The translations under genes and the position numbers were made by a program. Source: Candidatus Wallbacteria bacterium (GTDB taxonomy: Bacteria; Muiribacteriota; JAQTZZ01). From it: DNA of 38,723 nt. The notes beneath the pieces were generated by a model. The model worked only from the letters and a program-made list of their open reading frames with translations, was not told the DNA's origin and ran no database searches. Positions 3,195 to 38,723 of this stretch are shown here, one piece after another (within the stretch, counting starts at the first letter, position 1; each line of letters starts with the position of its first letter). Where the stretch lies: the NCBI GenBank assembly GCA_028687545.1, contig JAQTZZ010000031.1, positions 1 to 38,723 of the forward strand. Reading direction: 5' to 3'.

Positions 3195-3243
3195 CTGCCT
3201 GCCTCCAATCGACTCAGTCTGAAACGTAATCATTAAAAGCTGA

Positions 3244-5475
3244 CTATTCCAGCAGTTTCATCATTTCAAGCAGCCTGCCCTCTTCGGGAACTCCCTTGTC
3301 GCTGCAGTCATTCCTAAACATTTCCAGAGCGGTCCTGCCCTGATTATCCCTGATCCGGGGGTCTGCCCCCGCCTGCCGCAGCAAATTCAGCATTCGCAAG
3401 GCATAGTCCTGCATGCTGTTCATGGCAGAGTCATCGTTGCCAGACCAGTTGTAGGTGAAATCAAGCACAAGATGATGCAGAACTGTGTATCCACCTTCAC
3501 TGACCAGATTGACATCCGCGCCAGTTGCGATCAATTTTTCTAATCGTCGGTAGCTGTCGGTTTCGGTAAAATTCAGCGCAGCTTCCATCAGCGGAGTGAT
3601 GCCGCAAAGCGAGGCCGAATCCGGTGAAAATCCCGCTTTGACAAGCATATCGATGTATTCTGATCGGCAGAACAGCAGAAAAGGTTGCCTAGCCACTCTG
3701 CCATCTTTGAGTTTGTACCCCTTTTCGCACATCATCAGATCTGGCATTCTTGTTTCCAGCAGATACCGAACCAGGTCTGCATGCCCGATTCCACTGACAG
3801 CATCAACCATGATTTCGAAAATATCTCGCTTCAGTTCAAACCCCTTTTGTTCCAGCATTCGGGCAGTTTCAGGCCTTGGACAGATCCGCAGGAACTCACG
3901 GCAGTCATCCTCATTAACCTTGACTGCTGACTGAGCAAGACATCTGCGAATCCGGTAGATTTTATCCTCGTCGGTCAATCCGTTCTCGTGGCGAAGATAG
4001 TACAGCACGGAAGAAGGAGAAAAGTCTTCCTTCACGCTGGTTTCAGTTTGAGCCTTTATCCTGATTTTACTGCATGTTTTTAAAAGGTCCCTGCACTTGT
4101 CACCAAAATGCACGTCCAGGGCACTTTGCCCCTGGTTGTTTAAGGCATCCGGATCTGCTCCGTGGCTGAGCAGTATTTTCAAACCCTCAGGTTTGAGTTG
4201 TATATTGAACAAAGGCGTGTTTCCCAAGTCATCCCTGGCATTGACATCGGCCCCGGCCTCGATCAGGGCTGAAAGCGCTCCCGGATCAGAGACAGTGTGC
4301 AGCGGTGTTTCGCCCCTCTTTCCTCCGCGCTGATTGGGATCAAGCCCTGAATCCAGCATCAATCGTACGAACTCTTCGTTCCTGGCGCAATGCAGCAAGG
4401 TGTATCCCAGCTTCCCGGCCAGGTCTGACTCCATTTCCGCCGAGTCCATGTGACGATGAAGCCCCCAGCCTAAAATATCATCTGCCTGGATCGGCATTCT
4501 GGCTTTGGGATCTGCTCCGTGTGCGAGCAGCATGCGGGTCTCAACTGTTAAAGATGTGTATTGGAAAAGAATCGGCTCATCGCGGCAATCTGTAATGTTG
4601 AGGGGCATTCCCTGCTCCAGCAGGAGCTTCAGCAGGTCAGGATTTTTCAAAGGCTCAGTAATCGAATAATTCTCATGCCAGTCTGGAAGCTCCCAGCCGC
4701 AATCCTCGCTGATCAGCAGCTGGGCTACTTCCAGGGACCTGGTCTTCAGCAGCGGATGCTGATCCCATGAACAGATAATACTTTCTTCCGACTGAAAATT
4801 GAATTGCTTCGGCATCCTGAAATCTGCTCCGTTCCTGATCAGCACCTGGGCCACATCCGCCCTGTCCACATAAGCCAGCGGTAAATTATCCCATGAGCAT
4901 GAGGTTTTGAAGCCGTTCGGCGAAAATCCGCGGTCGATAAGGTATTGTGCCACTTCCGGGCTTTTCACATAGCAGAGCGGCGACTTATCATCTGTCTTCC
5001 TGTTCCAGGATTCCAGCCTGAGCCGGGACGCCAGCTCTGCGTTATGGATCGCGGTCACCATTTCACGGTGCAGCTTGACTGACCCCTTTGCCAGCAGGCA
5101 GCGGAGCAGTTCTTCGTCCTGTCTGTCGTTCAGCAGGGTGTACAGGTCTGGATCACTGTCTTTGCTGAAATCCCTGGCTGGGAATTCGGCTCTTCCCAGC
5201 AGGCATTTCAGCGCATCCGGTCTTTTGGCTTTACATCCTGCATTAAAAGCTGACAGCAGCACTTCAGCGGTCTTATCTGTAATCCTGTCGATCAAGCTCC
5301 CGAGCAGAGAAATCTCTCCTGTTTCAGCGGCCAGACGGATCTGCTCCTGCAGCGGAACTTCCAGAGTATGGCCTGTGGCAGTTTCCGGAACAGCACAATG
5401 AACTTTCAGCGCGATCAGGAGCATCAGCTGGAAAAAAATGAACCGGCTGAATCCAATGAATTTTTGATTGCTCAT
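3244..5475 (-). CDS. Exported multi-ankyrin-repeat protein, copy 2 of a tandem triplet
   Basis: This 743-residue paralogue of its neighbours starts at ATG 5473-5475 behind a GGCGGGC-type ribosome site, followed by a signal peptide (MSNQKFIGFSRFIFFQLMLL). The N-terminal module is very close to copies 1 and 3. Good ankyrin units include ALIEAGADVNARDDLGNTP, ILLSHGADPDALNNQGQSAL and LRQAGADPRIRDNQGRTAL. The middle differs: the PFDFSTEKD block of copies 1 and 3 is replaced by an unrelated-looking stretch (around SPSSVLYYLRHENGLTDEDK). The C-terminus EMMKLLE matches copy 3. The 49 bases between its stop and the start of copy 1 are nearly identical to the 49 bases between copy 3 and this gene, so the array grew by unequal duplication. 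Function is inferred only as protein binding outside the cytoplasm. Confidence 0.88.
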   Translation of the reverse strand: MSNQKFIGFSRFIFFQLMLLIALKVHCAVPETATGHTLEVPLQEQIRLAAETGEISLLGSLIDRITDKTAEVLLSAFNAGCKAKRPDALKCLLGRAEFPARDFSKDSDPDLYTLLNDRQDEELLRCLLAKGSVKLHREMVTAIHNAELASRLRLESWNRKTDDKSPLCYVKSPEVAQYLIDRGFSPNGFKTSCSWDNLPLAYVDRADVAQVLIRNGADFRMPKQFNFQSEESIICSWDQHPLLKTRSLEVAQLLISEDCGWELPDWHENYSITEPLKNPDLLKLLLEQGMPLNITDCRDEPILFQYTSLTVETRMLLAHGADPKARMPIQADDILGWGLHRHMDSAEMESDLAGKLGYTLLHCARNEEFVRLMLDSGLDPNQRGGKRGETPLHTVSDPGALSALIEAGADVNARDDLGNTPLFNIQLKPEGLKILLSHGADPDALNNQGQSALDVHFGDKCRDLLKTCSKIRIKAQTETSVKEDFSPSSVLYYLRHENGLTDEDKIYRIRRCLAQSAVKVNEDDCREFLRICPRPETARMLEQKGFELKRDIFEIMVDAVSGIGHADLVRYLLETRMPDLMMCEKGYKLKDGRVARQPFLLFCRSEYIDMLVKAGFSPDSASLCGITPLMEAALNFTETDSYRRLEKLIATGADVNLVSEGGYTVLHHLVLDFTYNWSGNDDSAMNSMQDYALRMLNLLRQAGADPRIRDNQGRTALEMFRNDCSDKGVPEEGRLLEMMKLLE

Positions 5476-5524
5476 CTGCCCGCCTCCAATCGACTCAGTC
5501 TGAAACGTAATCATCAAAAGCTGA

Positions 5525-7816
5525 CTATTCCAGCAGTTTCATCATTTCAAGCAGTTTGCCTTCTTCAGGTATGTGTTTTTCGCTGAGTCTTTTCTTCAGC
5601 AGTTCCAGTGCAGTATAGCCGTCCTTGTCTTTCAGCAGAGGATTCGCTCCACCTGCAAGCAGGGCTTTCAACATCAAGATCGCATTATCGGCAAGATAAT
5701 CACTTGGTGCTTGATAGTAGCTCAATTGCATGTAGAAAAACATCGCTACAAAATGCAGCGGCGTATGACCAAACCTGTCTGCAAGATTGGTATCTGCACC
5801 TGCTGCGATCAGTTTTTCGGCTTTTTGAAGATCGTCCGGAAGATGACTCATATATGCTGCCAGATGCAATGGAGTAACTGTGTCATATGTTGCGTCAGGA
5901 TAAAATCCAGCTTTGATGAGCAGATCCATGTATTCGAGACGGCAATTCCGGAGTGAATCGATCTTGGAACTTTTACCCCATCGATCGACACATTTTTCAT
6001 CCTTGAGCCCAGGCCCGCCTTTTTCCAGAAGAAAGCGGATCATTTCCACGTTCCCGCATTCCTCTACTGCGGGATCGAGCATCCAGTGAATATAGTTTCC
6101 AAAGTCGAATCCCTTTTTTTCCAGCATCCTGTAAACTTCGAGCCTGGGGCAGAGCATCAGCAGATTCCGGCCATATCTATCCGTGACCCGCGGGTTTCCG
6201 CCCTGGTCCAGATATTTTCTGATCAGATCAAGGTAAACCTTATCCTCATAGATATTATTGCCTTCTTTTACATTGCATTGGCGGTTTGCCAGCAGCGCAA
6301 CCAGGGGGAGCTCTCCGTCATTTTCCCTTAATTGTCTGTCTTTTTCCGTGCTGAAATCAAAAGGTTCCAGGATACTGGCTCCTTTATCCACTGCCTCCTG
6401 GAAAGCAAGCGGGTTTTGGGTCAAGCTCAGGTTGCGGGAAAAAGGCAGGGCCACTTCTTTGCAGATTGATTTCAGATAGTCCTGACAATAGGTGTCAGGA
6501 TGCATTTCCCTCACACCTATGCCTTTGAGATTCAGCGCTTCCGGATCAGCCCTATGTTCGATCAGGTATTTGAGACCGGCATGATTCAGGTTCCTGTTGA
6601 AAATCGGTGTGTTCCCAAAGCTGTCTCTGGCGTTCAGATCTGCTCCCGCTTCGACCAGAGCTTTCAGGGCATCCAGATCAGTGACTTTGTGCAGTGGGGT
6701 TTCATCGAATTCCCCTCCACGCACATCGGGATCAAGTCCGGATTCAAGCATCAGGCGGGCGAAATCTCCTGTTCTGGCGAGATGCAGCAATGTGTACCCG
6801 GACTTTTCCGTTATCTTTCCATCCGGACTCGCCTTTAAAGGAGCTCTCAGTTTGGGATCTGCTCCTTGCTCCAGCAGAATGCGCGCTTTTTCAGCTGAAT
6901 CGGTGAAATGGAAAAGTGGGGCCAATCCATCTGCATCAGGAAGATTAGGAGAAAGTCCCAGTTCAAGAAGCAGTCCTAGTACAGGAGGAGTGATCCTTTC
7001 ACAGTGGATTGCATAGCTTCCAAAGGAATCCGGAAAATTGTATCCGCAGCCTCTCTTGATCAGCAGTTCTGCGATTTCCCTGGTTTTCACATGCGGCAGT
7101 AACTGATCATCCCATTGACGCCAGCATAAAGCTTCTCTTGTCCTGACATAGGGTGGCGGCTGCTGAAAATTGAATTCCGCACCATTCCTGATCAGCACTT
7201 CTGCCACATCCACCCTGTCCACCCAGGCCAGAGGGCTGGTTGGCAGGTAGCCGTCCTTCGGCGAACAGCCGTGGTCGATTAGATATTGCGCAACTTCCGG
7301 GCTTTTTACAAAGCACAGAGTGTTTAATCTGTTCATTCCCATTTCCCGCGATTCCAGCTTCAGCTCGGCCGCCAGATCGACGCTGTGTATTGCAGGCACG
7401 ATTTCGTGATGGTGCTTGACCGCCCCTTTTTTCAGCATCAGCCTGAGCAGTTCCTCATCTTGCGAATCATTAAGCAAGGAGTAAAGATCAGAGTCACTTC
7501 CCTTGCTGAAATCTCTGGCTGGGAACTCGGCTCTGCCAAGCAGGCATTTCAACACTTCAGGTCTTTTGGCTTTGCAACTGGCATTAAAGGCAGACAGGAG
7601 CACCTCAGCGGTCTTATCGGTAATCTGATCGATCAGGTGTTCGAGCAGGGAAATCTCTCCTGTTTCGGCTGCCAGCCGGATCCGTTCCTGCAGTGGAACT
7701 TCCACAGTTTGTTCCAGGATTGTTCCCGCTGCAGCACAATGAATCCTCAGCGCAAAGAGAAGCACTGGCAGAATAAGAGTGAACCCGCTGATCCCCATGC
7801 ATTTTTTACTGCCCAT
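5525..7816 (-). CDS. Exported multi-ankyrin-repeat protein, copy 3 and promoter-proximal gene of the triplet
   Basis: This 763-residue protein is the first gene transcribed in the ankyrin array. ATG 7814-7816 follows a strong GGAGGAGG site and begins a signal peptide (MGSKKCMGISGFTLILPVLL, then LFALRIHCAAAG). The shared N-terminal module (ERIRLAAETGEISLLEHL, DQITDKTAEVLLSAFNAS) runs to about residue 200. Ankyrin units follow, such as LVEAGADLNARDSFGNTPI, LIAAGADTNLADRFGHTPL and LLAGGANPLLKDKDGYTAL. It carries the PFDFSTEKD middle block like copy 1 and the EMMKLLE end like copy 2, so the triplet is mosaic. Its promoter (7842-7896) has the four-repeat operator also found before the protease and transglutaminase genes. 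Confidence 0.9.
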   Translation of the reverse strand: MGSKKCMGISGFTLILPVLLFALRIHCAAAGTILEQTVEVPLQERIRLAAETGEISLLEHLIDQITDKTAEVLLSAFNASCKAKRPEVLKCLLGRAEFPARDFSKGSDSDLYSLLNDSQDEELLRLMLKKGAVKHHHEIVPAIHSVDLAAELKLESREMGMNRLNTLCFVKSPEVAQYLIDHGCSPKDGYLPTSPLAWVDRVDVAEVLIRNGAEFNFQQPPPYVRTREALCWRQWDDQLLPHVKTREIAELLIKRGCGYNFPDSFGSYAIHCERITPPVLGLLLELGLSPNLPDADGLAPLFHFTDSAEKARILLEQGADPKLRAPLKASPDGKITEKSGYTLLHLARTGDFARLMLESGLDPDVRGGEFDETPLHKVTDLDALKALVEAGADLNARDSFGNTPIFNRNLNHAGLKYLIEHRADPEALNLKGIGVREMHPDTYCQDYLKSICKEVALPFSRNLSLTQNPLAFQEAVDKGASILEPFDFSTEKDRQLRENDGELPLVALLANRQCNVKEGNNIYEDKVYLDLIRKYLDQGGNPRVTDRYGRNLLMLCPRLEVYRMLEKKGFDFGNYIHWMLDPAVEECGNVEMIRFLLEKGGPGLKDEKCVDRWGKSSKIDSLRNCRLEYMDLLIKAGFYPDATYDTVTPLHLAAYMSHLPDDLQKAEKLIAAGADTNLADRFGHTPLHFVAMFFYMQLSYYQAPSDYLADNAILMLKALLAGGANPLLKDKDGYTALELLKKRLSEKHIPEEGKLLEMMKLLE

Positions 7817-10987: not shown

Positions 10988-12007
10988 TCAGGGAGTTGAA
11001 CTGCCCTGGTAGAGGAGCCCGCCGCTGAATTCCCCGAAGTTGGCTGCTCCGTATGCGATGTAGCCAAAGCCTTTCTCACCCCAGACTGTGCTCCATGAAT
11101 TCTTGATGATCCAGTATCTGCCTGAATCGCTGTAACCCACTGCCAGCACGGCATGATTTGTGGGAGTATCAGTAACCACGTTATAGATGCCGCCTGAATA
11201 GGCCATTACTGATGCGTCCACCGTCACCCCGACATAGCAGGAACCTGACTTTACAATGCAGGCCTTGATCAGGGAATCGAGACCGGTTTCAGTGTGACCT
11301 GTCTGATCCGCTTCCGGTCCGGCGATGCATACTCCCTGCGTATCTTTGAAGAACCAGCGCCAGGTGGCAATTTTATAGTTCCTGGGGTTGTTCCTGCAGG
11401 TTCCATTGGCAGCCATGTAAGGTTCATCGCTTTCCAGAACCGCCCCCATTGTACGGAAAAGTTCGACAGCAGTGAAATATCCGCCATGGCAGTTCATTCC
11501 CAGGGGATTGCAGTTCATCAGATCCTGCTCGGAAAGATCCACAAGTCTGTCTGTCTTGCAGGCGATTGCGGATTCCAGGCAGGCTGTCGTGGCAAAAGCC
11601 CAGCAGGAACTGCACATTTCCTGGCACTTCACTGGAGTCACCTTGTTTTCCTTTCTCCAGTCAATTTCCGCAGGCAGGCTTAGTAAGTCGCCAAAGAATG
11701 GGTCAGGCCCTTTTTCATGATCAAGGAGGTCTGTCTCTGACTGTTTTTTCCACCTGGCCTGCATTTTCACTTCCCTCACCATGTCCTGCATGATGTCCCT
11801 GATAGGAACTCTGCTATAGGAACAGGAGACAGAGAGTGCAGCAGGAGATACCTGAAAGCTGTCATTGTTTTCAGCAGCGATTTTCACCGCTGTTTTATAG
11901 ATTTCACTTTTCCGGAGCGAGTCATCCCCGTTAATCATGTGTTTTTCCCCGGCGGATATCATTATTGTAACAGCCAGGAAAACGCTCATGATCAGGCTTC
12001 TCTTCAT
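10988..12007 (-). CDS. Exported papain-like cysteine protease (C1), diverged copy
   Basis: This 339-residue secreted C1-family peptidase has a signal peptide (MKRSLIMSVFLAVTIMISAG) and a propeptide-like region to about residue 110. The mature domain opens with LPAEIDWRKENKVTPVK. Catalytic residues are present: oxyanion Gln129, Cys135 in CSSCWAFAT, His285 in NHAVLAVGY and Asn303 in IIKNSWSTVWGEKGFGYIAYG. The usual QGxCGSCWAF is QEMCSSCWAF here, so two glycines next to the active site are changed. It is closely related to the gene at 13089 and probably sits third in that operon, 75 bases behind the TolB-like gene. It likely degrades extracellular or envelope protein. The changed active-site loop may alter specificity or activity. 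Confidence 0.92.
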   Translation of the reverse strand: MKRSLIMSVFLAVTIMISAGEKHMINGDDSLRKSEIYKTAVKIAAENNDSFQVSPAALSVSCSYSRVPIRDIMQDMVREVKMQARWKKQSETDLLDHEKGPDPFFGDLLSLPAEIDWRKENKVTPVKCQEMCSSCWAFATTACLESAIACKTDRLVDLSEQDLMNCNPLGMNCHGGYFTAVELFRTMGAVLESDEPYMAANGTCRNNPRNYKIATWRWFFKDTQGVCIAGPEADQTGHTETGLDSLIKACIVKSGSCYVGVTVDASVMAYSGGIYNVVTDTPTNHAVLAVGYSDSGRYWIIKNSWSTVWGEKGFGYIAYGAANFGEFSGGLLYQGSSTP

Positions 12008-13088: not shown

Positions 13089-14105
13089 TCAGGAGCTTGA
13101 ATCGCTCTGGTAGACGAGCATGCAACCGATATCTTCTATGCCGGCTGCTCCATATGCTATGCGGCCAAAGCCTTCTTCACCCCAGGTTGTGTCCCATGAA
13201 TTTTTGATAATCCAGTATTTGCCTGAATCGCTGTAGCCTACTGCTATCACTCCATGATCTGTAGGTTCGGTGGCAACAACATCGTAGATCCCGCCTGAAT
13301 AAGCCATGAAGGAATCGTCCGCTTTCACTGCAATGCCACAGGAACCTGACTGTACTATGCTCATCTTGATCAGGGTTTTGAGATCTGTTTCAGTCTGGCT
13401 GATTTGATCCGCTTCCGGGCCTGCTATATAGACTGCTTGCGTATCTTTATAATACCAGCGCCAGGTTGTGATTTTGTAGTTCCTGGGATTTTTCCTGCAG
13501 GTTCCATTAGCTGCCTGATAAGGCTCATCGCTCTCCAGAACCCCTCCTTCCTTGCGGAAAAGATCAACAGCTGTGTAAAATCCGCCGTCGCAACCCATGC
13601 CTTCGTAATTGCAGTTTATCAGGTCCTGTTCTGAAAGGTCGATCAACTTGCCAGTTTTGCAGGCGATAGCGGATTCAAAGCAGGCTGTCGAAGCGAATGC
13701 CCAGCAACTGCCGCATGTCCCCTGCGACTTTACCGGAGTCACTTTGTTTTCCTTCCTCCAGTCAATCTCCGCTGGAAGGCGGGTCTGATCGCAGAAAAAA
13801 GTGTTAAATCCCTGGTCAGGATTCTCCCGGTTTGGTGATGAATTTCTCAATCTGACCTGCTGTCTCACTTCCTCAATCATCCCAGCCAGGTAGCTTCTGA
13901 TTGGTATCCTTTTATTGGACCAGGATTCTGGGATTGCAGCAGGAGATACCTGAAAACTGCCCTGATGTTTTTCGGCGATTTTGACTGCATTTTCATAGAT
14001 TTCACTTTTCCGGGCTGTGGAATCCCCCGCATTAATACTGCATCTCTCCTCTGCGGATATCATCACGGAAATCATGATCAAGTTCATGAACAGGTGCAGC
14101 TTCAT
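13089..14105 (-). CDS. Exported papain-like cysteine protease (C1)
   Basis: This 338-residue secreted C1-family peptidase starts at an ATG behind GGGAGGGAAGT and has a signal peptide (MKLHLFMNLIMISVMISA). A propeptide-like stretch runs to about residue 108, then LPAEIDWRKENKVTPVK. The active site is canonical: Gln128 and Cys134 in QGTCGSCWAFA, His284 in DHGVIAVGY, Asn302 in IIKNSWDTTWGEEGFG. The GCDGGFYTAV and NCN motifs and several cysteines are also typical. It is a clear paralogue of the gene at 10988. It is the first gene of the protease, propeller, protease operon and is driven by the four-repeat promoter at 14150-14204. It is probably an extracellular or periplasmic endopeptidase made as a zymogen. 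Confidence 0.94.
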   Translation of the reverse strand: MKLHLFMNLIMISVMISAEERCSINAGDSTARKSEIYENAVKIAEKHQGSFQVSPAAIPESWSNKRIPIRSYLAGMIEEVRQQVRLRNSSPNRENPDQGFNTFFCDQTRLPAEIDWRKENKVTPVKSQGTCGSCWAFASTACFESAIACKTGKLIDLSEQDLINCNYEGMGCDGGFYTAVDLFRKEGGVLESDEPYQAANGTCRKNPRNYKITTWRWYYKDTQAVYIAGPEADQISQTETDLKTLIKMSIVQSGSCGIAVKADDSFMAYSGGIYDVVATEPTDHGVIAVGYSDSGKYWIIKNSWDTTWGEEGFGRIAYGAAGIEDIGCMLVYQSDSSS

Positions 14106-14211: not shown

Positions 14212-15642
14212 TCAGTCTTTGACGTGCTCAAGCATTTTTTCCACATCTGCCGCAGTAAAAGGGCTGCCCAGATACAGTCTGGCGATCCCTGCGGCATCCT
14301 TGAAGCTCAGCCCTGTTTTAATCACTTTCCTGTAAAATGCCTGCGCTTTTTTCCTTTCTGCCAGAATGTCGTGAATGAAACCCTGGAAATTCAGGGCCCA
14401 GATCTTGATATTTGCTGAATATCCGATATTGCTGCCCTTAGTGTGACAGTCTGAAAAGAAATCCAGGGCTTTCTGGTAATCTCCTGTAGCCAGAAACGTC
14501 TGTCCAAGAAAGTAATTGGTCAGCGGCGAGTCAGGTTGTTTCTCCAGGTCGCAGAAAAGTTTTTTCCTGGCTGCCAGCCATTCCTTATTTTCTATCAGCA
14601 AGAAAAGCAAATTGCCGCTGCTTTTTTCATAGGCATGTTTCCTGTCTGTAGCCTTTTCTCCGAAAACATAGTTTCCGCTGTGGATGACTTTATCGTGTAT
14701 ATCATAGAATTCGACGGATCTTGGTTTTGAGGAAATACCTCCGGGCGTGAGGTTTTCGAAGACTCTTGTTTCACCTGTTTTCCTTGAGATGAATTCATTT
14801 TCGAGGCCTGCATAGTTTATAATCCGATTCGGATAAAGGTTTCCGAAAAGATAATCTGGATCAGGACCTTCAATTCCCAATACATCGCAGATGTATCCAA
14901 GTGCCTTCTTGTCGAAATTGCATTTAGACTTCTGAAGGAAACCCTCAGCGAAAGAAGTGTCAGCCGGAATCCATCCGCATCCGGGGATGAAAAATTCCGA
15001 AAAAGCGTGCCCGCCTCCTGGAAACCAGCGGCAGCACATGGGCCGGGCGGGGATGCCTGAAGCTCTGCAGAGAGCAACGAACAGGCAGGCGAAGTCGAGA
15101 CAGGAGCCTTTTCCAAGCCTGAGGGTCTGGTCTGCCGAATTCGTATCATCAGATGTGCCTTCAAAATCCATGTTGTAAATGATCCAGTTGAAAATCAGTC
15201 TGGCTCTGAAATAAGGATTATTTTCCAGACCCACGATCCTGGCTGCGGTTTTCCTGACTCTGCCTGTCAGTGTGATCAGGCCTTCAGACCTGGTAAAAAA
15301 ATCGAAAAAATCGCTGGACTTGTCGTAATCCCTGATCATGGTCGGGTTTATTCTTGTATTGACAGGAGAGACAGACATTTCGAAATCATAGTAAAATTGA
15401 AGCTTTTTTTTCCGGATATCCTTGATCTCCCAGAAAACGACTCTGTTTTGATTGAACCTGTCTGTGATTATTTCCGTGGGCTCAGGATAAATTTCTCTGA
15501 TCTTTACTTTCTGGCTTCTGTGCTGATAGGGAAGAGCCAGCCAGAGCAGTATCCTCGGGTCCGTCCCTGTGACTTTGATGTTTTCGATGAAGAACCAGAA
15601 ACGGCCTCTTTCAGCTCCGGTTTTTATTCCTGTTGTTTTCAA
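14212..15642 (-). CDS. Transglutaminase-like protein with C-terminal TPR region
   Basis: This protein of about 476 residues (from the TTG at 15640-15642) has a transglutaminase-like papain-fold domain and helical repeats. The catalytic triad is visible: Cys181 in GKGSCLDFACLFVAL, His212 in GHAFSEFF and Asp228 in WIPADTSF. An N-terminal beta-rich part (RFWFFIENIKV, ILLWLALPYQ) is typical of bacterial relatives. Residues from about 370 on form TPR-like helices (NYFLGQTFLATGDYQKALDFF). TTG is chosen because GGAGG lies just upstream and homologous-looking sequence begins there; the same frame also stays open to an ATG at 15756. No signal peptide is seen, so the protein may be cytoplasmic. Such domains act as proteases or cross-linking enzymes. 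It is driven by the four-repeat promoter at 15779. Confidence 0.8.
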   Translation of the reverse strand: MKTTGIKTGAERGRFWFFIENIKVTGTDPRILLWLALPYQHRSQKVKIREIYPEPTEIITDRFNQNRVVFWEIKDIRKKKLQFYYDFEMSVSPVNTRINPTMIRDYDKSSDFFDFFTRSEGLITLTGRVRKTAARIVGLENNPYFRARLIFNWIIYNMDFEGTSDDTNSADQTLRLGKGSCLDFACLFVALCRASGIPARPMCCRWFPGGGHAFSEFFIPGCGWIPADTSFAEGFLQKSKCNFDKKALGYICDVLGIEGPDPDYLFGNLYPNRIINYAGLENEFISRKTGETRVFENLTPGGISSKPRSVEFYDIHDKVIHSGNYVFGEKATDRKHAYEKSSGNLLFLLIENKEWLAARKKLFCDLEKQPDSPLTNYFLGQTFLATGDYQKALDFFSDCHTKGSNIGYSANIKIWALNFQGFIHDILAERKKAQAFYRKVIKTGLSFKDAAGIARLYLGSPFTAADVEKMLEHVKD

Positions 15643-15778
15643 ATGTCCTCCATGTGACGTAATAAAGTTCCTGGCCTTTGGACACTGCTTTTGGTGTCTA
15701 CTCAGACGATTTCCAACTCGATTCTTCCGGTGATTTCCATAAAACCTCCAGCGCATTGTTTTAAATCGCTTTAAGAAA

Positions 15779-20411: not shown

Positions 20412-23108
20412 ATGAATTTATTACCTTCCAAGCCGTTTTTCTGCGGCAGGGCAAATGACCTGAAAGAGCTGAAAAGAGCGATTCCAGAGAGAAATGTCCT
20501 GATCATCGCAGGTATAGGCGGTATCGGCAAGACTGCGCTGCTTCTGCAGCTTGCTTATGATCTTCTGGAAGAACCCGGGCGAGGGGAAAACCTGATCTGG
20601 GTATCCAGCAAGAGCGGCTGGAATGATGACGACCTTTTTTCAGAGATTGTCCAGAAAATCGCCCAGCTGTCTGGAGATAAAAAATACACTTCAGGATTCA
20701 AGGGTGCACCTGCTGAAATCATCGGAATGCTCGAAGATCTTTCGCTGATCCTTTTTCTGGATGATTTCCATCTGGTGGAGAACGAACACACCAGAGGTCT
20801 GATTACTGCCGGATCAGAGAGTCTGAAGAGCGGGAAAATCATAATTGCGACCAGAAAGAGGCTTTCACTGGCTCCCCTTGAACTGATCGAGATCTACCAG
20901 AGAAAAATCGAAGGCCTGGAAGATTCTGATGCTTCTGATTTGATGGATAATCTGCTGCGGTCTCAAGGACTGAAAACCCTGACTGAAGAGAAAAAAGGCC
21001 GGATTTTTCAGAAAACCAAGGGCCATCCGTTCTCCCTGAAACTCTTTTTCAGCCTTTTGATCACAGGCCGGCATTCGCTGGAGTCTTTACTCTCCGAGTC
21101 ATCCGGCTTTCTCGATGAGATGGACAAATTCCTGTTCCACAAGCTGTGGGAGAATCTGACCGAAGCCGAGAGGCAAGTCCTGTGCAGGCTTTCCATTTTG
21201 AGAATCCCTGTGTCTGCTGACAGGTTCCCGCTGTTTGACCGCAGTGACCTTGCTGCAGCCTGCAGGCTGCTGATCGAGAAATATCTGATCGAGACCGACA
21301 GCGAAGGCAGAGTGCACCTGCATGATCTTTTAAGGGAATATGCTGCTTTACAGCTTCCCGAAGACAGCCGCAGAAAGTTCCATGAGCAGGTGGCCCTTCA
21401 TTTTTTCAACCAGAATGAATTGAATGTCTCTGAAATGAAGGAATCATATTATCATTACTGGGAAGCAGGGGACAAGAAAAAGGCGATTGACGTGATCATT
21501 AGAATCAGCAGGCAATTCCTGCTGATCGCTGAAGATTCGGAGAATTTTCTGCCACATTTAAACGACGCCATCAACTTCTGCGAAAATTACAGAGAGCAGG
21601 AGCTTATGGAGACAAAGGCTCAGATCCTGATCGAAGTGGGGAAGTCTGAAGAAGCCCTGAGCCTGCTCCAGAAGATCGTTGATCAGAGGGCATTTCATTA
21701 TCTGAGGGCGTATCTTCATTACCAGAAGGGTGAAGACCGTCAGGCCCTGGACGATGCGCTGGCCGCTCTGAGTTCAGATGGTGGTGAAACACTGATTCCG
21801 GAAATCAAGCATCTGATCGGAGTAATTTATTTTTTTCTCGGGGAATCGGGGAAGGCTGAGGAGAATTGTCTGGAAGCCTTGAAAATGGCCGGTGATCAGA
21901 AGTTGACTTTCCTGGTCAGCAGAACACTGATCGATCTGGGCAACACCAGGGCCAGAATGGGAAAATTACAGGAAGCCCTTGACAATTTTCGGGAAGCAGA
22001 GCAGATCCTTAGAAGTCACAACCTGATTTCACAGCTATCAAAGCTGCTGATCAGCGCCGCCAACCTCTGCCTCGAACTGCAGGATTACGGGATGGCGCGG
22101 AAGTGCGTTTCAGAGGTGATCGGGATCGCCCTGGACAGCAAAAAATATTACCGGAATCTGATTTACTGCTATGGAATTTCCGGTGACATTGATTTCGCGG
22201 CCAGGGATTTCGAATCCGCATATCGTAATTACAGCGAAGCTCTGCGCCTGATTGAACTGTATAAATATTACTGCGTCAAGCTGGAGCTGATGGGTTATCA
22301 GGGCAGGGCTCTCGCCTGCCTCGGCAGACTGGACGAAGCAGAAGAAGTTTTCGGGAGGGCTTTCAAGATCATGAATGATGACAGTCCATACATCCGGAAT
22401 ATTTTTCTGGAGGAATACGCCCAGTTCCTGCTGATGAGGGGAAAACCCGAAGCCCTTGCCAGATTCCAGGAAGTCCGGGATTTTGCCAGGCAGTCCTCTT
22501 ATCAGGAATTACTGCTGAAGAGCCTGTTTTTTATCAGTAAGATTTTGAAAACCAGCGGAAGCAGAGAAGCTGACGACTGCGGCAGAGAATTCAGAATGAA
22601 GATGGAGGAAGCCTCACAGGCGGTCAGGAACAGGCTGAAGACTTTTTTTCAGTGGTTTGATGAGCAGTCTGCAGACTATAAAACAGGAGGCTTTGTCCTG
22701 TCCCGGAAGGGCAGGGCGCAGATCACTGATTCCGAGATCAGAAAGCTGCAGGGAGGGGAATTTGAAATTTTCATTGACTTCATCAACAGGGATTTGAGCG
22801 TGGACGGCCAAAAAATCGGCATCTTCAAGAAAAGGATTCTCGTGCCACTGATCACAGCGCTGGCCTGCAGACCGGGACGGATCATGAAACCCTCGGAGAT
22901 CTCTGCCTTGGTCTGGAACAAGGAATACGACCCAGAGACTGACTCTCAGACACTGCGGAAGAATGTTTCCAGGCTCAGGGAGATGCTGGGGGACGGCAAG
23001 GGCGAGCGTTTTATTCTGGCCGGGCCGGAAAAGGGCAGCTATCTCTTCAACGACAAAGTGAATTTCTGCGTGATCATATCCGGCACCCTGGATTCAGATC
23101 GAAAATGA
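20412..23108 (+). CDS. STAND-type ATPase regulator with TPRs and C-terminal OmpR-type DNA-binding domain
   Basis: This 898-residue signal-responsive regulator has an N-terminal NTPase with Walker A at 34-41 (GIGGIGKT), Walker B at 112-119 (LILFLDDF) and a GHPFSLKL motif near residue 215. Tetratricopeptide-like helices run from about 350 to 740 (GESGKAEENCLEALKMAG, GKLQEALDNFREAEQIL). Residues 783-885 form a winged helix of the Trans_reg_C/OmpR class (VDGQKIGIFKKRILVPLITAL, LRKNVSRLREMLGD, then a GSYLF wing). STAND proteins oligomerise on ATP and ligand binding and then activate transcription. It lies 46 bases before the histidine-kinase gene and shares a DNA-binding fold with the response regulator, so it may act on the same genes. 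It has no strong ribosome site. Confidence 0.85.
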   Translation: MNLLPSKPFFCGRANDLKELKRAIPERNVLIIAGIGGIGKTALLLQLAYDLLEEPGRGENLIWVSSKSGWNDDDLFSEIVQKIAQLSGDKKYTSGFKGAPAEIIGMLEDLSLILFLDDFHLVENEHTRGLITAGSESLKSGKIIIATRKRLSLAPLELIEIYQRKIEGLEDSDASDLMDNLLRSQGLKTLTEEKKGRIFQKTKGHPFSLKLFFSLLITGRHSLESLLSESSGFLDEMDKFLFHKLWENLTEAERQVLCRLSILRIPVSADRFPLFDRSDLAAACRLLIEKYLIETDSEGRVHLHDLLREYAALQLPEDSRRKFHEQVALHFFNQNELNVSEMKESYYHYWEAGDKKKAIDVIIRISRQFLLIAEDSENFLPHLNDAINFCENYREQELMETKAQILIEVGKSEEALSLLQKIVDQRAFHYLRAYLHYQKGEDRQALDDALAALSSDGGETLIPEIKHLIGVIYFFLGESGKAEENCLEALKMAGDQKLTFLVSRTLIDLGNTRARMGKLQEALDNFREAEQILRSHNLISQLSKLLISAANLCLELQDYGMARKCVSEVIGIALDSKKYYRNLIYCYGISGDIDFAARDFESAYRNYSEALRLIELYKYYCVKLELMGYQGRALACLGRLDEAEEVFGRAFKIMNDDSPYIRNIFLEEYAQFLLMRGKPEALARFQEVRDFARQSSYQELLLKSLFFISKILKTSGSREADDCGREFRMKMEEASQAVRNRLKTFFQWFDEQSADYKTGGFVLSRKGRAQITDSEIRKLQGGEFEIFIDFINRDLSVDGQKIGIFKKRILVPLITALACRPGRIMKPSEISALVWNKEYDPETDSQTLRKNVSRLREMLGDGKGERFILAGPEKGSYLFNDKVNFCVIISGTLDSDRK

Positions 23109-26971: not shown

Positions 26972-28357
26972 TCAGAATTCAAACAGGTATAAAAGCGAGC
27001 GCAGCAATTTAATAAACACCCTGAAATTGCGCAGATAAAAAATGAAATGACTGAAGAAGTGTTTTAAGAGGAAAAACGGGTTGAAGTAGAAGGAACAATA
27101 AAGATAGGCCTGGCCGAACTTGAGAACCCTGCGGCTCATCCTGGAAGGAGAATGTTCAGGGGTGGAGTAATGATAACTGTGATGATCTGAGAGATGTCCG
27201 TAATTCCGGTAAAGTGCCGAACTGGGATAGATCGTGAGGAATGATACCTGCAGCAGGTCCGGTTTCAGCCTGCGGATCAGCCTGCCTGTCCTGAGCACAT
27301 CGCCGAAGGTTTCATCCGGATTCCCGATCAGTGCGAGGAACAGGCTCTGGATTCCAAATTTTTTCGTGAGGGAAAACACCTGAGCTGCCTTTGTCAGATA
27401 TTTCTCAGGTTCCATTGTTTTTCCGATTCTGCGCAACACACTTTTCGAACCGCTCTCCACACCCAGACGCAGCAGCCTGCATCCTGCGGCAGCATAAAGT
27501 TTCAGCAACTCCTGATCCAGGTTTTCCACTCTGAGATGACACTGCCAGTGAATGTCCAGGCCGTTTTGGATCATCAGATCGAGAAATTTTCTAGTCCATT
27601 CCCTGTCGCAGCCGAAATTGTCGTCGTCGAAGCAGATGAAGTTCACTCCCAGTGACTTGAATTTCATGATCTCTGCGATCACCCGCTCAGGAGAATGCAG
27701 TCTGAGATTATTCCCGAACGATTCCCTGAAGACCTGGGAGCAGAACAGGCAGCCGCCCGGACAGCCGCGGGAACTGAGGATGTGACCGTATCTAAGCCGG
27801 GCTGAGACAGGGACAGGATAATAAAACCGGTATCCTTCAAGTTCACGCTCTGAATAAAACGGGATAGGCAGATCGTCGGGATTGTCCACAATCGCCTGAC
27901 AGGCGGTGTTGCCCAGATTCACATCAATCACTCCGTCAGGGACCTGGAAATCTCTTTGTGCCGCAAGCAGTGAGATCAGGCTGGAAAGGGACTGTTCCGA
28001 TTCTCCGAGCGCTATGTAGTCCACTTCATCGCGATGCAGGTAAAATCCAGGCCTGCCCGAAGGATCCTGGCCGCAGACAATGATTACTGTAGCCGGGTTC
28101 TGCTTGTAAATCCTCGCGATGTCGAGCGACCGTCCCGCATCGCTCGTGATGATGGAAAGCACAACTATTTCAGGGGAACTTTCTGCAGGAACAATCGGTT
28201 CGTCTCCGAGATATTCGTCACTGAAAATTGTTTCAATCTTCTGATTTTCGGTGAGCAGGCTCTGCAGGTATTTCAGAAGGTACGGAGGTCTGATGTTGCG
28301 CGGGTGCCTGGATTTTCTGGCTGTTTCGCCTTGAACCCTGAGCAGGAGTACTTTCAT
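26972..28357 (-). CDS. B12-binding-type radical SAM protein
   Basis: This 461-residue radical SAM enzyme has an N-terminal cobalamin-binding-like Rossmann domain (about 1-140; VVLSIITSDAG, DYIALGESEQSL). It lacks a DxHxxG motif, so B12 may bind base-on or not at all. The SAM domain carries the CX3CX2C cluster site Cys199/203/206 in SSRGCPGGCLFCSQ, then FICFDDDNFGCD, LLRLGVESGS and LALIGNPDET. The C-terminal 60 residues are basic and hydrophobic (KHFFSHFIFYLRNF), perhaps membrane-associated. The start ATG overlaps the rarA stop by 4 bases, making it the last gene of the murA-rarA operon. Substrate unknown; relatives modify lipids, hopanoids, tetrapyrroles or antibiotics. Confidence 0.88.
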   Translation of the reverse strand: MKVLLLRVQGETARKSRHPRNIRPPYLLKYLQSLLTENQKIETIFSDEYLGDEPIVPAESSPEIVVLSIITSDAGRSLDIARIYKQNPATVIIVCGQDPSGRPGFYLHRDEVDYIALGESEQSLSSLISLLAAQRDFQVPDGVIDVNLGNTACQAIVDNPDDLPIPFYSERELEGYRFYYPVPVSARLRYGHILSSRGCPGGCLFCSQVFRESFGNNLRLHSPERVIAEIMKFKSLGVNFICFDDDNFGCDREWTRKFLDLMIQNGLDIHWQCHLRVENLDQELLKLYAAAGCRLLRLGVESGSKSVLRRIGKTMEPEKYLTKAAQVFSLTKKFGIQSLFLALIGNPDETFGDVLRTGRLIRRLKPDLLQVSFLTIYPSSALYRNYGHLSDHHSYHYSTPEHSPSRMSRRVLKFGQAYLYCSFYFNPFFLLKHFFSHFIFYLRNFRVFIKLLRSLLYLFEF

Positions 28358-35167: not shown

Positions 35168-36535
35168 TTATTCCTTGGCACCGGCCTGTTTCAGGATTTC
35201 TGCGAGCTCGGTCCGGCCTTTTTTCTCTGCCACTTCGAGTGCCGTGCCTGTGAAGCCTTTGGCATTAATATTGATTTTCTTGGTGAGGAGCATCCTGAGG
35301 ATTTCAGTGTAGTTCCTTTCCACCACATAGGTGATCAGAGGCCTGTCATAGTAAAGCGCGTTGACATTGGCCCCCTGGGAGATCAGGATGTCGGCGATTT
35401 CGCATTCACGCGAGGAAATCATCCTGTCTTTCAGATGGTTGAAAGTATTGGGACTGTAATCGAAAAGCGTGTAGAAAAGCGGAGTGAGCCGGTTTTTATC
35501 TTTATGATTGACATCTACTTTTTTTGAAGTCAACAATGAAACAATGTTTTGGTAGCCGTCCATGCTGGCATAAAAAAGGGGAGTCCTGTCGTCACAGTCT
35601 GGATCGTCGACCCTGGCACCGTTTTTGATCAGAGCTTTGACTATCTCCACTTCATCTGAGTTTTCCCTGAGATTTTCAAAATACCTGGCCTGGCCAGCTT
35701 GATAGGTCTTAAACAGAGGGGAATCCGCATCCACCTTTGAAAGACCGCAGAATCGCTGGTAATCCCAGCAGCCGCAGGCATAGAAAAGGGCGTTTCTGCC
35801 GAATCTGTCGCGTTGATTGCAGTCTGCACCTTTTTTCAAAAGCCGGGTGACCAGTTCTTTTTTATGGTATTTTGCGGCAAAATGCAGCGCATTCATGCTG
35901 TTCTGATCCAGCATGTGAATGTTAGCGCCTTTATTGATCAATTGCTCAGCCAGATCATCCCAGCCGTTCAGGATGGACATCATCAGGGGAGTGCGGCGGA
36001 AACGATTCCTGGCATTGATTTCAAGTGTACCGGTGAGAAGTGTTCTGATTGTGGCCAGGCCCTCGAAATCAACTTTATCTGAGACCGACCATCTTTCAAA
36101 TTCCCTGATCAGAGGGTCTTTATAGTCTGCTGCTCCTGTGGCAGGGCCGCAGCACAATCCGTGTACAGTGCAGAGGCAGGAAGTATACTGTGGGTTATTG
36201 ATCAGAATGAAATGGCCTCCCTGCGGGCACCGATAATCCCGCTCGACCTCCTCATGGAGAACTGCCAGGGTGTCAATGCTTTCAGGCAGTCTGCCGTGCT
36301 CAAATTGCAGCCTGGCCAGCTTGTCGAGCAGCAGGCTCATCCGATAGTCGCATCTCATGGTGGGGTCCGGTGTAGCTGCCATCAGACGCTGCTGCATGGT
36401 TTCCTCATCTGCGAAGAAATATCCGATCAGCCATTTCAGCGTGAAAAATCCGCTGCCAAAAACCGAGATCGTGAAAACCAGGATCAGCAGTTTGAGGTTT
36501 TGACGGGAAATTCTGAGTTTGATTTTAGTAGGCAT
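35168..36535 (-). CDS. Membrane-anchored protein with pilin-like segment and ankyrin repeats
   Basis: This protein of 455 residues starts at ATG 36533-36535; an in-frame TTG lies 14 codons upstream, and neither has a strong ribosome site. One membrane helix follows a basic start (LKLLILVFTISVFGSGFF). A segment near residues 55-125 (MRCDYRMSLLLDKLARLQFE, then YRCPQGGHFILINN and SCLCTVHG) resembles the CPxGGxY...CxxHG pattern of type II secretion/pilin-related proteins. About seven ankyrin units follow, e.g. LINKGANIHMLDQNSMNAL, LLKKGADCNQRDRFGRNAL and LISQGANVNALYYDRPL. The protein should display ankyrins on the outer face of the inner membrane. It is unrelated in detail to the triplet at 852-7816. 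It is divergent from hypA. Confidence 0.85.
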   Translation of the reverse strand: MPTKIKLRISRQNLKLLILVFTISVFGSGFFTLKWLIGYFFADEETMQQRLMAATPDPTMRCDYRMSLLLDKLARLQFEHGRLPESIDTLAVLHEEVERDYRCPQGGHFILINNPQYTSCLCTVHGLCCGPATGAADYKDPLIREFERWSVSDKVDFEGLATIRTLLTGTLEINARNRFRRTPLMMSILNGWDDLAEQLINKGANIHMLDQNSMNALHFAAKYHKKELVTRLLKKGADCNQRDRFGRNALFYACGCWDYQRFCGLSKVDADSPLFKTYQAGQARYFENLRENSDEVEIVKALIKNGARVDDPDCDDRTPLFYASMDGYQNIVSLLTSKKVDVNHKDKNRLTPLFYTLFDYSPNTFNHLKDRMISSRECEIADILISQGANVNALYYDRPLITYVVERNYTEILRMLLTKKININAKGFTGTALEVAEKKGRTELAEILKQAGAKE

Positions 36536-36651
36536 AATTTTTTCTACTGAGTAGTGTGTTATCGTCCTATCGTACAATTCTGCCTGTTTGATAAATCATT
36601 TGGAGGAAGATAGTCCTGGTTTGCTTTCGTGATGCGGGGCAGGTTATATTT

Positions 36652-37201: not shown

Positions 37202-38512
37202 ATGTGTTACGCCATACCAGGCAGAATCGTCGAAATCCTCCCCAAGATGGTAGTGGTGGAATATTTCGGGGAGCGTAAGAAAGCTTACAACGAGCTTTCC
37301 GGACTTAACGTCGGTGATTACGTCTATGCCCAGGGCGGATATGTGATCGACCGGATCAGCGAAGGGGAAGCGCTGGCCACGCTGGAAGTCTGGAAAGAGT
37401 TGTTTTTCCAGCTCAGGCAGGAGGATGAGCGGCGCACTAAGCTGATTCCTGACCGCAGAACCAGAGAAAACAGGATTTACTCACTCTTTGAAAAGGTTAA
37501 TCACGGGAAAAAACTTAAGCCTCGTGAACTGCTGCATCTGCTGAAGCTGAAAGACAGGGAAGACCTGGACATTTTGTACAGTTCAGCCAATTTTCTCAGG
37601 CAGAAGTATCATCGGAATTCCTGCTGCGTTCACGGGATCATCGAGCTGTCCAACCGGTGCAGCCGTAATTGCGCTTATTGCGGGATCTCGAACCACAATC
37701 AAAACCTGAAGCGCTATAAAATGGATAAAAGTGAAATACTGGCTGCCGTTGATCAGGCAGTGGAAAAATACGGATTTAAGGCGCTTGTGCTGCAGAGCGG
37801 AGAAGGAGCATATTCCGTCGGAGAGCTGGCTGAAATTACCGCTGAAATCAAGCTGCTGCACGGGGTGCTGGTATTCATAAGCTGCGGCGAGATCGGAGCT
37901 GCAGGGTTGCAGAAGCTTTTCGATGCAGGTGCCCGCGGCCTGCTGTTGCGTTTTGAAACCTCCAATCCCAAGCTCTATCAGAAGTTGCATCCCGGATATT
38001 CACTCGAGAATCGGCTGTCTGAACTCCGCACTGCGTACAGCATGGGCTACCTGCTCATCACAGGCGGCCTGATCGGGCTGCCTGGGCAATCGGAAAAGGA
38101 CATCTTGAACGATATTCTGCTGGCCGGTGAACTGCACTCCGAGATGTACAGCTTCGGTCCGTTTCTGCCCCACTGCGAAACCCCGCTGGCAAAAAAAAAT
38201 CCGCCAGACCCTGAACTGGTGCTGAAAACTCTGGCTGTAGCCCGCTTCACAGCTCCGGAGGATGCCAAAATACTGGTGACCACGGGTTTTGAAACCCTGC
38301 ATTCTGAAGCCAGGGAGCGAGGTTTGATGGCAGGTGCCAATTCAGTGATGCTGAATGTAACGCCAATGCAGTACAGATCTTTATATTCTATCTATCCCGG
38401 TCGTGCGCACGAACAGGAAACAATCGAATTTCAGATTGAGAAGACGATCGGATTGTTAAGAACTCTAGGTCGTGCTCCAACCGATTTAGAGGCTGTTGAA
38501 AAACCGAGTTGA
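37202..38512 (+). CDS. HypC-HydE fusion: hydrogenase chaperone joined to radical SAM maturase
   Basis: This 436-residue protein has two domains. Residues 1 to about 75 are HypC/HupF-like: MCYAIPGRIVEI with the essential Cys2, then LNVGDYVYAQGGYVIDRI. HypC carries the Fe(CN)2CO unit of [NiFe]-hydrogenases. Residues about 85-430 are HydE-like: PRELLHLL, HGIIELSNRCSRNCAYCGIS with CX3CX2C at Cys153/157/160, YKMDKSEIL, LVLQSGEG, LLLRFETSNPKLYQKLHPG, GLIGLPGQSEKD, FGPFLPHCETPLA and MLNVTPMQYRSLYSIYPG. HydE helps build the [FeFe]-hydrogenase subcluster. Both parts look intact. I know of no established role for this pairing. It may load iron-ligand units onto a [NiFe] enzyme, or serve another Fe-CO/CN cofactor. 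The stop lies inside an inverted repeat. Confidence 0.9.
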   Translation: MCYAIPGRIVEILPKMVVVEYFGERKKAYNELSGLNVGDYVYAQGGYVIDRISEGEALATLEVWKELFFQLRQEDERRTKLIPDRRTRENRIYSLFEKVNHGKKLKPRELLHLLKLKDREDLDILYSSANFLRQKYHRNSCCVHGIIELSNRCSRNCAYCGISNHNQNLKRYKMDKSEILAAVDQAVEKYGFKALVLQSGEGAYSVGELAEITAEIKLLHGVLVFISCGEIGAAGLQKLFDAGARGLLLRFETSNPKLYQKLHPGYSLENRLSELRTAYSMGYLLITGGLIGLPGQSEKDILNDILLAGELHSEMYSFGPFLPHCETPLAKKNPPDPELVLKTLAVARFTAPEDAKILVTTGFETLHSEARERGLMAGANSVMLNVTPMQYRSLYSIYPGRAHEQETIEFQIEKTIGLLRTLGRAPTDLEAVEKPS

Positions 38513-38540: not shown

Positions 38541-38723
38541 CCCGAAGTCCTGTCAGAGACAGGACGGAGCGGGGTTTAGAGGCACTGTAGTTGGAACCCG
38601 AAGTCCTGTCAGAGACAGGACGGAGCGGGGTTTAGAGGCACTGTAGTTGGAACCCGAAGTCCTGTCAGAGACAGGACGGAGCGGGGTTTAGAGGCACTGT
38701 AGTTGGAACCCGAAGTCCTGTCA
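38541..38723. repeat. 56-bp tandem hairpin repeat running off the window end
   Basis: A unit of exactly 56 bases begins at 38541 and recurs at 38597, 38653 and 38709, giving 3.3 copies with no differences from 38541 on. Each contains a perfect hairpin GTCCTGTC-AGA-GACAGGAC, and AACCC/GGGTT can extend the stem. The first copy is flanked by CCTCTTAACCCC, which nearly matches the reverse complement of GGGGTTTAGAGG in the unit. No open reading frame lies inside. The window probably ends here because the array continues. Confidence 0.85.

Follow-up and report, generated by a model that had tools for sequence, protein, structure and literature searches.

Introduction

Hydrogenase maturation is taught as two separate systems. 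In the canonical HypABCDEF system, HypC and HypD form the scaffold, and cyanide is derived from carbamoyl phosphate via HypF and HypE. The site that results in [NiFe]-hydrogenases carries one CO and two CN ligands, whereas the product of HydG, which belongs to the HydE-HydF-HydG system of [FeFe]-hydrogenases, carries two CO and one CN.

On the [NiFe] side, Fe(CN)2CO is carried to the large subunit by HypC together with HypD, and within HypCD it is held by Cys2 of HypC and Cys41 of HypD, with His44 nearby (PMC11565642). HypC has, in addition, a histidine (H51 in E. coli) that lies at the HypC-HypD interface and is required for HypD binding (PMC9002611). On the [FeFe] side, HydG converts tyrosine to [Fe(Cys)(CN)(CO)2]-, which is transferred directly to HydE and reduced by SAM radical chemistry (PMC12752695).

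Here we analyzed a stretch of 38,723 nucleotides from a Candidatus Wallbacteria genome (hereafter, the window), in which one gene encodes HypC and HydE as a single protein. The system to which this fusion belongs resembles canonical HypABCDEF in having a HypC domain with Cys2, HypA, HypB (at some loci), a C-terminal protease and ordinary group 3b or 4 large subunits, yet it differs in being without HypD and HypF, in joining HypC to HydE, in replacing the HypD-contacting His with Gln and in having hydG in the operon. With the [FeFe] system it shares HydG and a radical SAM domain of the HydE fold, including the CX3CX2C motif; however, HydF is absent from roughly half the fusion genomes, the linkage is to [NiFe] genes, and the HydE part bears HypC and a CCxH signature. 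The candidate role, i.e., supplying a CO ligand to a [NiFe]-hydrogenase, is also that of the HypX route of aerobes, but HypX uses a C1 donor, while the candidate source here is tyrosine via HydG, with joint delivery of iron, CO and cyanide.

Results

The fusion gene starts with ATG, contains no internal stops and lies 98 bp downstream of hypA (Table 1). As stated in the original prediction, HypC and HydE are encoded by one gene, Cys2 and the three radical SAM cysteines are present, and hypA precedes the fusion. Pfam matched HupF_HypC (E 3.6e-14, 53.1 bits versus a cut-off of 28.5), Radical_SAM (residues 147-305) and BATS (residues 323-405). The NCBIfam profiles TIGR03956 (HydE; E 1.3e-67, 228.5 bits) and hypC_hupF (42.8 bits) scored below their cut-offs, the former slightly (254.6 and 48, respectively), indicating that the protein is a divergent member of both families. 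The nearest solved structures are those of T. maritima HydE (residues 108-426) and T. kodakarensis HypC (first 67 residues). An AlphaFold2 model of the fusion, made with 54 aligned fusions, reached a mean pLDDT of 93 and a pTM of 0.92, which predicts a defined mutual placement of the two domains. When this model was compared by Foldseek, it superimposed on T. maritima HydE with an rmsd of 1.6 Å over 336 columns (39% identity), and synthon-bound structures of the same enzyme were among the top matches.

Table 1. Features of the fusion gene and the preceding hypA, in window coordinates
Feature	Position	Strand	Evidence
hypA (nickel metallochaperone), 113 aa	36762..37103	+	Pfam HypA, E 9.5e-25, above cut-off
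HypC-HydE fusion gene, 436 aa	37202..38512	+	Pfam and NCBIfam profiles, full-length homologues, AlphaFold2 model
HypC domain, residues 1-64	37202..37393	+	Pfam HupF_HypC; PDB HypC 2z1c/3vyr, E ~1e-8
Cys2, Fe-binding thiolate of HypC	37205..37207	+	Invariant in 85/85 fusions; role by canonical HypCD (PMC11565642)
Gln44, replacing HypC His (E. coli H51)	37331..37333	+	HypC structure alignment; Gln in 85/85 fusions
HydE-type radical SAM domain, residues 96-426	37487..38479	+	TIGR03956 at 96-403; T. maritima HydE at 108-426
C141-C142-x-H144, fusion-specific, first barrel strand	37622..37633	+	Invariant in 85 fusions
CX3CX2C radical SAM motif, C153/C157/C160	37658..37681	+	Invariant in 85/85 fusions

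The window contains several other features. A 56-bp perfect tandem repeat (3.3 copies, 38541-38723) lies 3' of the fusion gene and extends to the window end, and an ankyrin-repeat protein adjoins hypA on the other side (35168-36577, minus strand), the fourth of its kind after three consecutive ones of 757-793 aa (852-7816, minus strand). Also encoded are two papain-family cysteine proteases (10988-12007 and 13089-14105, minus strand) followed by a transglutaminase-like protein (14212-15756, minus strand), an NB-ARC/TPR protein with a transcriptional-regulator domain at its C-terminus (20412-23108, plus strand) and a radical SAM protein with a weak match to a B12-binding domain (26972-28357, minus strand). 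An Rfam search of the window gave no matches.

Is the fusion an artifact of assembly? A search of 57 genomes recovered full-length fusions in three besides the window's own (51-56% identity), one of them from another phylum, and a scan of GTDB species genomes returned 176 relatives, of which the best 80 essentially all span both HypC and HydE, at ~47-62% identity to the window protein. These best 80 comprise Omnitrophota (40), Margulisbacteria/Saganbacteria/WOR-1 (13), Elusimicrobia (6), Brevinematales/Spirochaetes (5), Riflebacteria/Ozemobacteraceae (2), Scalindua (2) and Deltaproteobacteria (2), plus singles. With at least 80 intact, full-length fused homologues in many phyla, the possibility that two genes were merged by misassembly or a frame error, a worry raised in the original prediction for the domain junction, is ruled out. 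A single branch (SH-aLRT 100) separated 50 fusions from 25 free-standing HydEs in a quick tree based on the HydE region. Two fusions are short (~392 aa; L190:9535-10713 and L191:594-1775), the stretch from HypC to the radical SAM core being much reduced in them.

We next turned to the residues that define the two parent families. Across 85 aligned fusions, neither Cys2 nor any of the three radical SAM cysteines varies (Met1-Cys2 in 85/85), and the HypC position of the HypD-contacting His is occupied by Gln44 in every one. The HydE domain has the residues Q198, E201, R250 and E252 in common with ordinary HydE. C141, C142 and H144, invariant in the fusions, occur in none of the 25 free-standing HydEs, all of which have Arg at the H144 position (R54 of T. 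maritima by alignment). The spacing of C141-x-x-H144 resembles that of the HypD Cys-x-x-His, and from this likeness in sequence the motif may provide a second Fe ligand in place of that of HypD. Thus, the fusion is neither a standard HypC, having no HypD-contacting His and no HypD, nor a standard HydE, as it forms a separate branch and shows no requirement for HydF.

The loss of the HypD-contacting residue is mirrored by the gene content of the fusion genomes. In the window's own genome, which is 97% complete, the fused HypC is the sole HypC, and searches beyond the window for the parts of the standard pathways found a separate hydE, but no separate hypC, no HypD and no match to the HypF zinc finger, zf-HypF. 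HypD was also missing from the three other fusion genomes of the first search (a control genome was positive) and from 48 of 50 further ones; in total, HypD and zf-HypF were both missing in the same 52 of 54 fusion genomes, the searches for both being positive in E. coli and other controls. The two exceptions, G073 and G093, are Deltaproteobacteria MAGs holding both proteins, and in G093 HypD and HypF are part of a canonical cluster that is separate and includes another hypC, reflecting either two systems or a binning mix. Among the clustered neighbors of 84 fusion loci, no recurrent HypE-like family was seen.

Since the fusion genomes are all MAGs, HypD, HypE and HypF could in principle be there and have been missed, because the genomes are incomplete (the window's own lacks 3%) or the proteins have diverged. 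We regard this as barely credible in light of the 285 genomes of the Omnitrophota phylum (counted as the phylum of G057, with the ambiguous G363, G267 and G193 excluded). HypD is present in 97 of the 98 with a free-standing HypC and in 0 of the 44 with the fusion, and no genome holds both forms of HypC, which split cleanly by length (67-162 aa when free, at least 372 aa when fused). The association is strong (Fisher p 4e-36), although the genomes are related and the p value therefore overstates their independence. This contrast rules out genome incompleteness as the cause of the missing hyp genes, and both the absence of HypF from the very genomes that are without HypD and the loss of the HypD-contacting His from all fusions speak against diverged, overlooked proteins.

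We clustered all open reading frames around the 84 fusion loci. The fusion was commonly found in operons of [NiFe] group 3b or 4 hydrogenases, with hypA and a maturation protease. A recurrent same-strand order emerged, of sulfhydrogenase beta, gamma, small and large subunits, protease, hypA, fusion, (rex) and hydG; a second arrangement involves group 4 genes (NuoH, NuoC, antiporter, ferredoxin). Large-subunit genes were present at 57 loci, hypA at 49, the protease at 46 and hydG at 36, with many loci stopping at contig edges, and some loci also have a HypB gene. Where at least 2.2 kb of downstream sequence was available, hydG started on the same strand within 1 kb of the fusion at 23 of 59 loci, and at several it overlaps the fusion stop by 4-8 bp. 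In one Omnitrophota-phylum genome (G182), HypC, HydE and HydG are fused in a single 915-aa open reading frame (L188:7651-10398), whose neighbors are a group 4 hydrogenase, hypA and a gene for a hydrogenase protease. Of all the observations, this fusion hints most strongly that the three proteins act one after another.

In the window's own genome, the contig runs 9.5 kb beyond the window and encodes there a divergently oriented group 4 hydrogenase, whose large subunit finds its closest match in P. furiosus MBH, and a HycI-type protease; a second [NiFe] enzyme, of the sulfhydrogenase type and matching P. furiosus sulfhydrogenase I, is encoded on contig C8. By sequence, group 4 enzymes lie close to NuoD, and one could argue that the large subunits linked to the fusion are of a complex-I-like kind, with no NiFe site and no need for Fe(CN)2CO. 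We give this reading next to no weight, as the Ni/Fe cysteines (CxxC and DPCxxC motifs) are kept in 56 of 57 linked large subunits, many of which are group 3b-like, and the operons include hypA and the C-terminal protease. Nor do the site motifs of the large subunits (PRG arginine, proline-threonine or proline-serine) show anything unusual. One genome (G025, loci L143, L144, L145 and L146; 83% complete) encodes four or more distinct [NiFe] large subunits and is without HypD and zf-HypF; there, the fusion may also work for group 1-like enzymes.

It had also been proposed, from the occurrence of HydE-like proteins without HydF or HydG, that the fusion might belong to a different Fe-ligand pathway. 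Our data do not support a pathway free of HydG: of the 54 fusion genomes, 50 have a HydG that passes the cut-off and 4 do not, and the HydG gene often overlaps that of the fusion. HydF, the GTPase scaffold of the [FeFe] system, behaved differently, exceeding the cut-off in only 24 of the 54. It did not do so in 30 of the 50 scan-derived fusion genomes, 27 of which have HydG; one of the 27 (G060) has part of a HydF at the edge of a contig, so that 26 genomes have HydG and no trace of HydF. In about half of the fusion genomes, then, HydG cannot be serving an H-cluster in the known way. In line with this, hydG was found at 4 of 5 fusion loci of Saganbacteria, for which a 2019 study independently described [NiFe]-hydrogenases of the group 3b and membrane types, but none of the [FeFe] type (PMC6349859).

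These data bear on a further interpretation, in which the fusion is simply a HydE for [FeFe]-hydrogenase maturation and HypC a passive or regulatory tag. Its HydE domain is typical, and the search for hydG and hydF elsewhere in the window's own genome found both (on contigs C52 and C62, respectively), HydG adjoining an [FeFe] group A6 hydrogenase in the operon of the latter. However, this genome, like some others, already has a separate HydE-like gene (on C14), and neither the 26 genomes with HydG and no HydF, nor the linkage of the fusion to [NiFe] genes, nor the exclusion of HypD where the fusion is present would be expected of an [FeFe] maturase; we thus consider the interpretation very improbable. 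As a point against the pathway proposed below, the HydG of this genome lies in that [FeFe] operon and may be shared by the [FeFe] and [NiFe] enzymes.

As for the HydGs of the fusion loci, all have CX3CX2C, while the auxiliary-cluster motif CX2CX22C is intact in 22 of 36 and its second cysteine is shifted in 13 of 36, the latter counting against a model in which HydG feeds the fusion. In these 13 (at L072, L077, L094, L096, L099, L110, L116, L119, L124, L126, L128, L131 and L133), the motif CTACYR..RTG has become CTAGYRCGRTG, and an extra Cys follows in most; judging by the motif, they may bind the fifth iron differently. In the HydG tree the fusion-locus HydGs do not form one clade (9 label changes), indicating more than one recruitment or exchange of HydG.

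Discussion

Taken together, these results make it highly probable that the fusion is the central protein of an alternative [NiFe] maturation pathway, in which HydG and HydE feed HypC, replacing HypD, HypF and presumably HypE. Such a junction between HydG/HydE chemistry and HypC delivery would explain why these organisms can do without HypD and HypF, and presumably without HypE. The original prediction, that the HypC carrier receives the radical SAM product or its iron complex, stands as far as genomic context goes, all of which fits it (a single HypC, no HypD or HypF, [NiFe] operons, hydG in the operon and the triple fusion); the chemical steps and the final ligand set we infer.

In this pathway, HydG, a radical SAM tyrosine lyase, would convert tyrosine to a mononuclear [Fe(Cys)(CO)2(CN)] synthon as it does in [FeFe] maturation, and would hand it to the HydE domain as it does to free HydE. 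SAM radical chemistry in that domain would then release the iron from its cysteine chelate, and the iron-carbonyl-cyanide fragment would be captured by Cys2 of the fused HypC domain, with C141, C142 and H144 perhaps standing in for Cys41 of HypD, the second ligand in HypCD. The HypC domain would finally dock on the apo large subunit and insert the fragment, after which HypA and HypB would insert nickel and the HycI-type protease would process the C-terminus, as usual.

The ligand count of the HydG product speaks against the proposed pathway and implies that either the ligands are rearranged or the [NiFe] site is different. In principle, two tyrosine turnovers, giving two CO and two CN, could yield a product with one CO and two CN; alternatively, a disproportionation could take place on HydE, or the [NiFe] site could be genuinely different. 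The ordinary motifs of the large-subunit pocket lean toward a normal site. In the boldest form of the proposal, organisms of several phyla would draw all diatomic ligands of their [NiFe]-hydrogenases from tyrosine via HydG and the fusion, and the site would keep an unprecedented Fe(CO)2(CN) set, which we consider unlikely.

The same mismatch with Fe(CN)2CO could be taken to mean that HydG and the fusion provide only CO (or Fe-CO), with cyanide arriving from some source other than HypE/HypF, and the source of CO in anaerobes is indeed unknown (PMC12134894). Yet HydG makes both CN and CO, and the operons hold no other widely conserved uncharacterized gene, rendering this division of labor improbable compared with delivery of both ligands by way of HydG, HydE and HypC.

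We conclude that the hybrid maturation system is real and widespread, and that it is undescribed within the searchable literature: we found no earlier report of a HypC-HydE system in open-access papers. In the fusion genomes, the front end of one maturation system meets the back end of the other, and the carbamoyl-phosphate route to cyanide and the HypD scaffold are replaced. If the proposed pathway is true, tyrosine would be a ligand source for [NiFe]-hydrogenases, with a genetic system at hand, and a different gene set would be available to produce these enzymes in other hosts. The finding also bears on the relationship between the two maturation routes.
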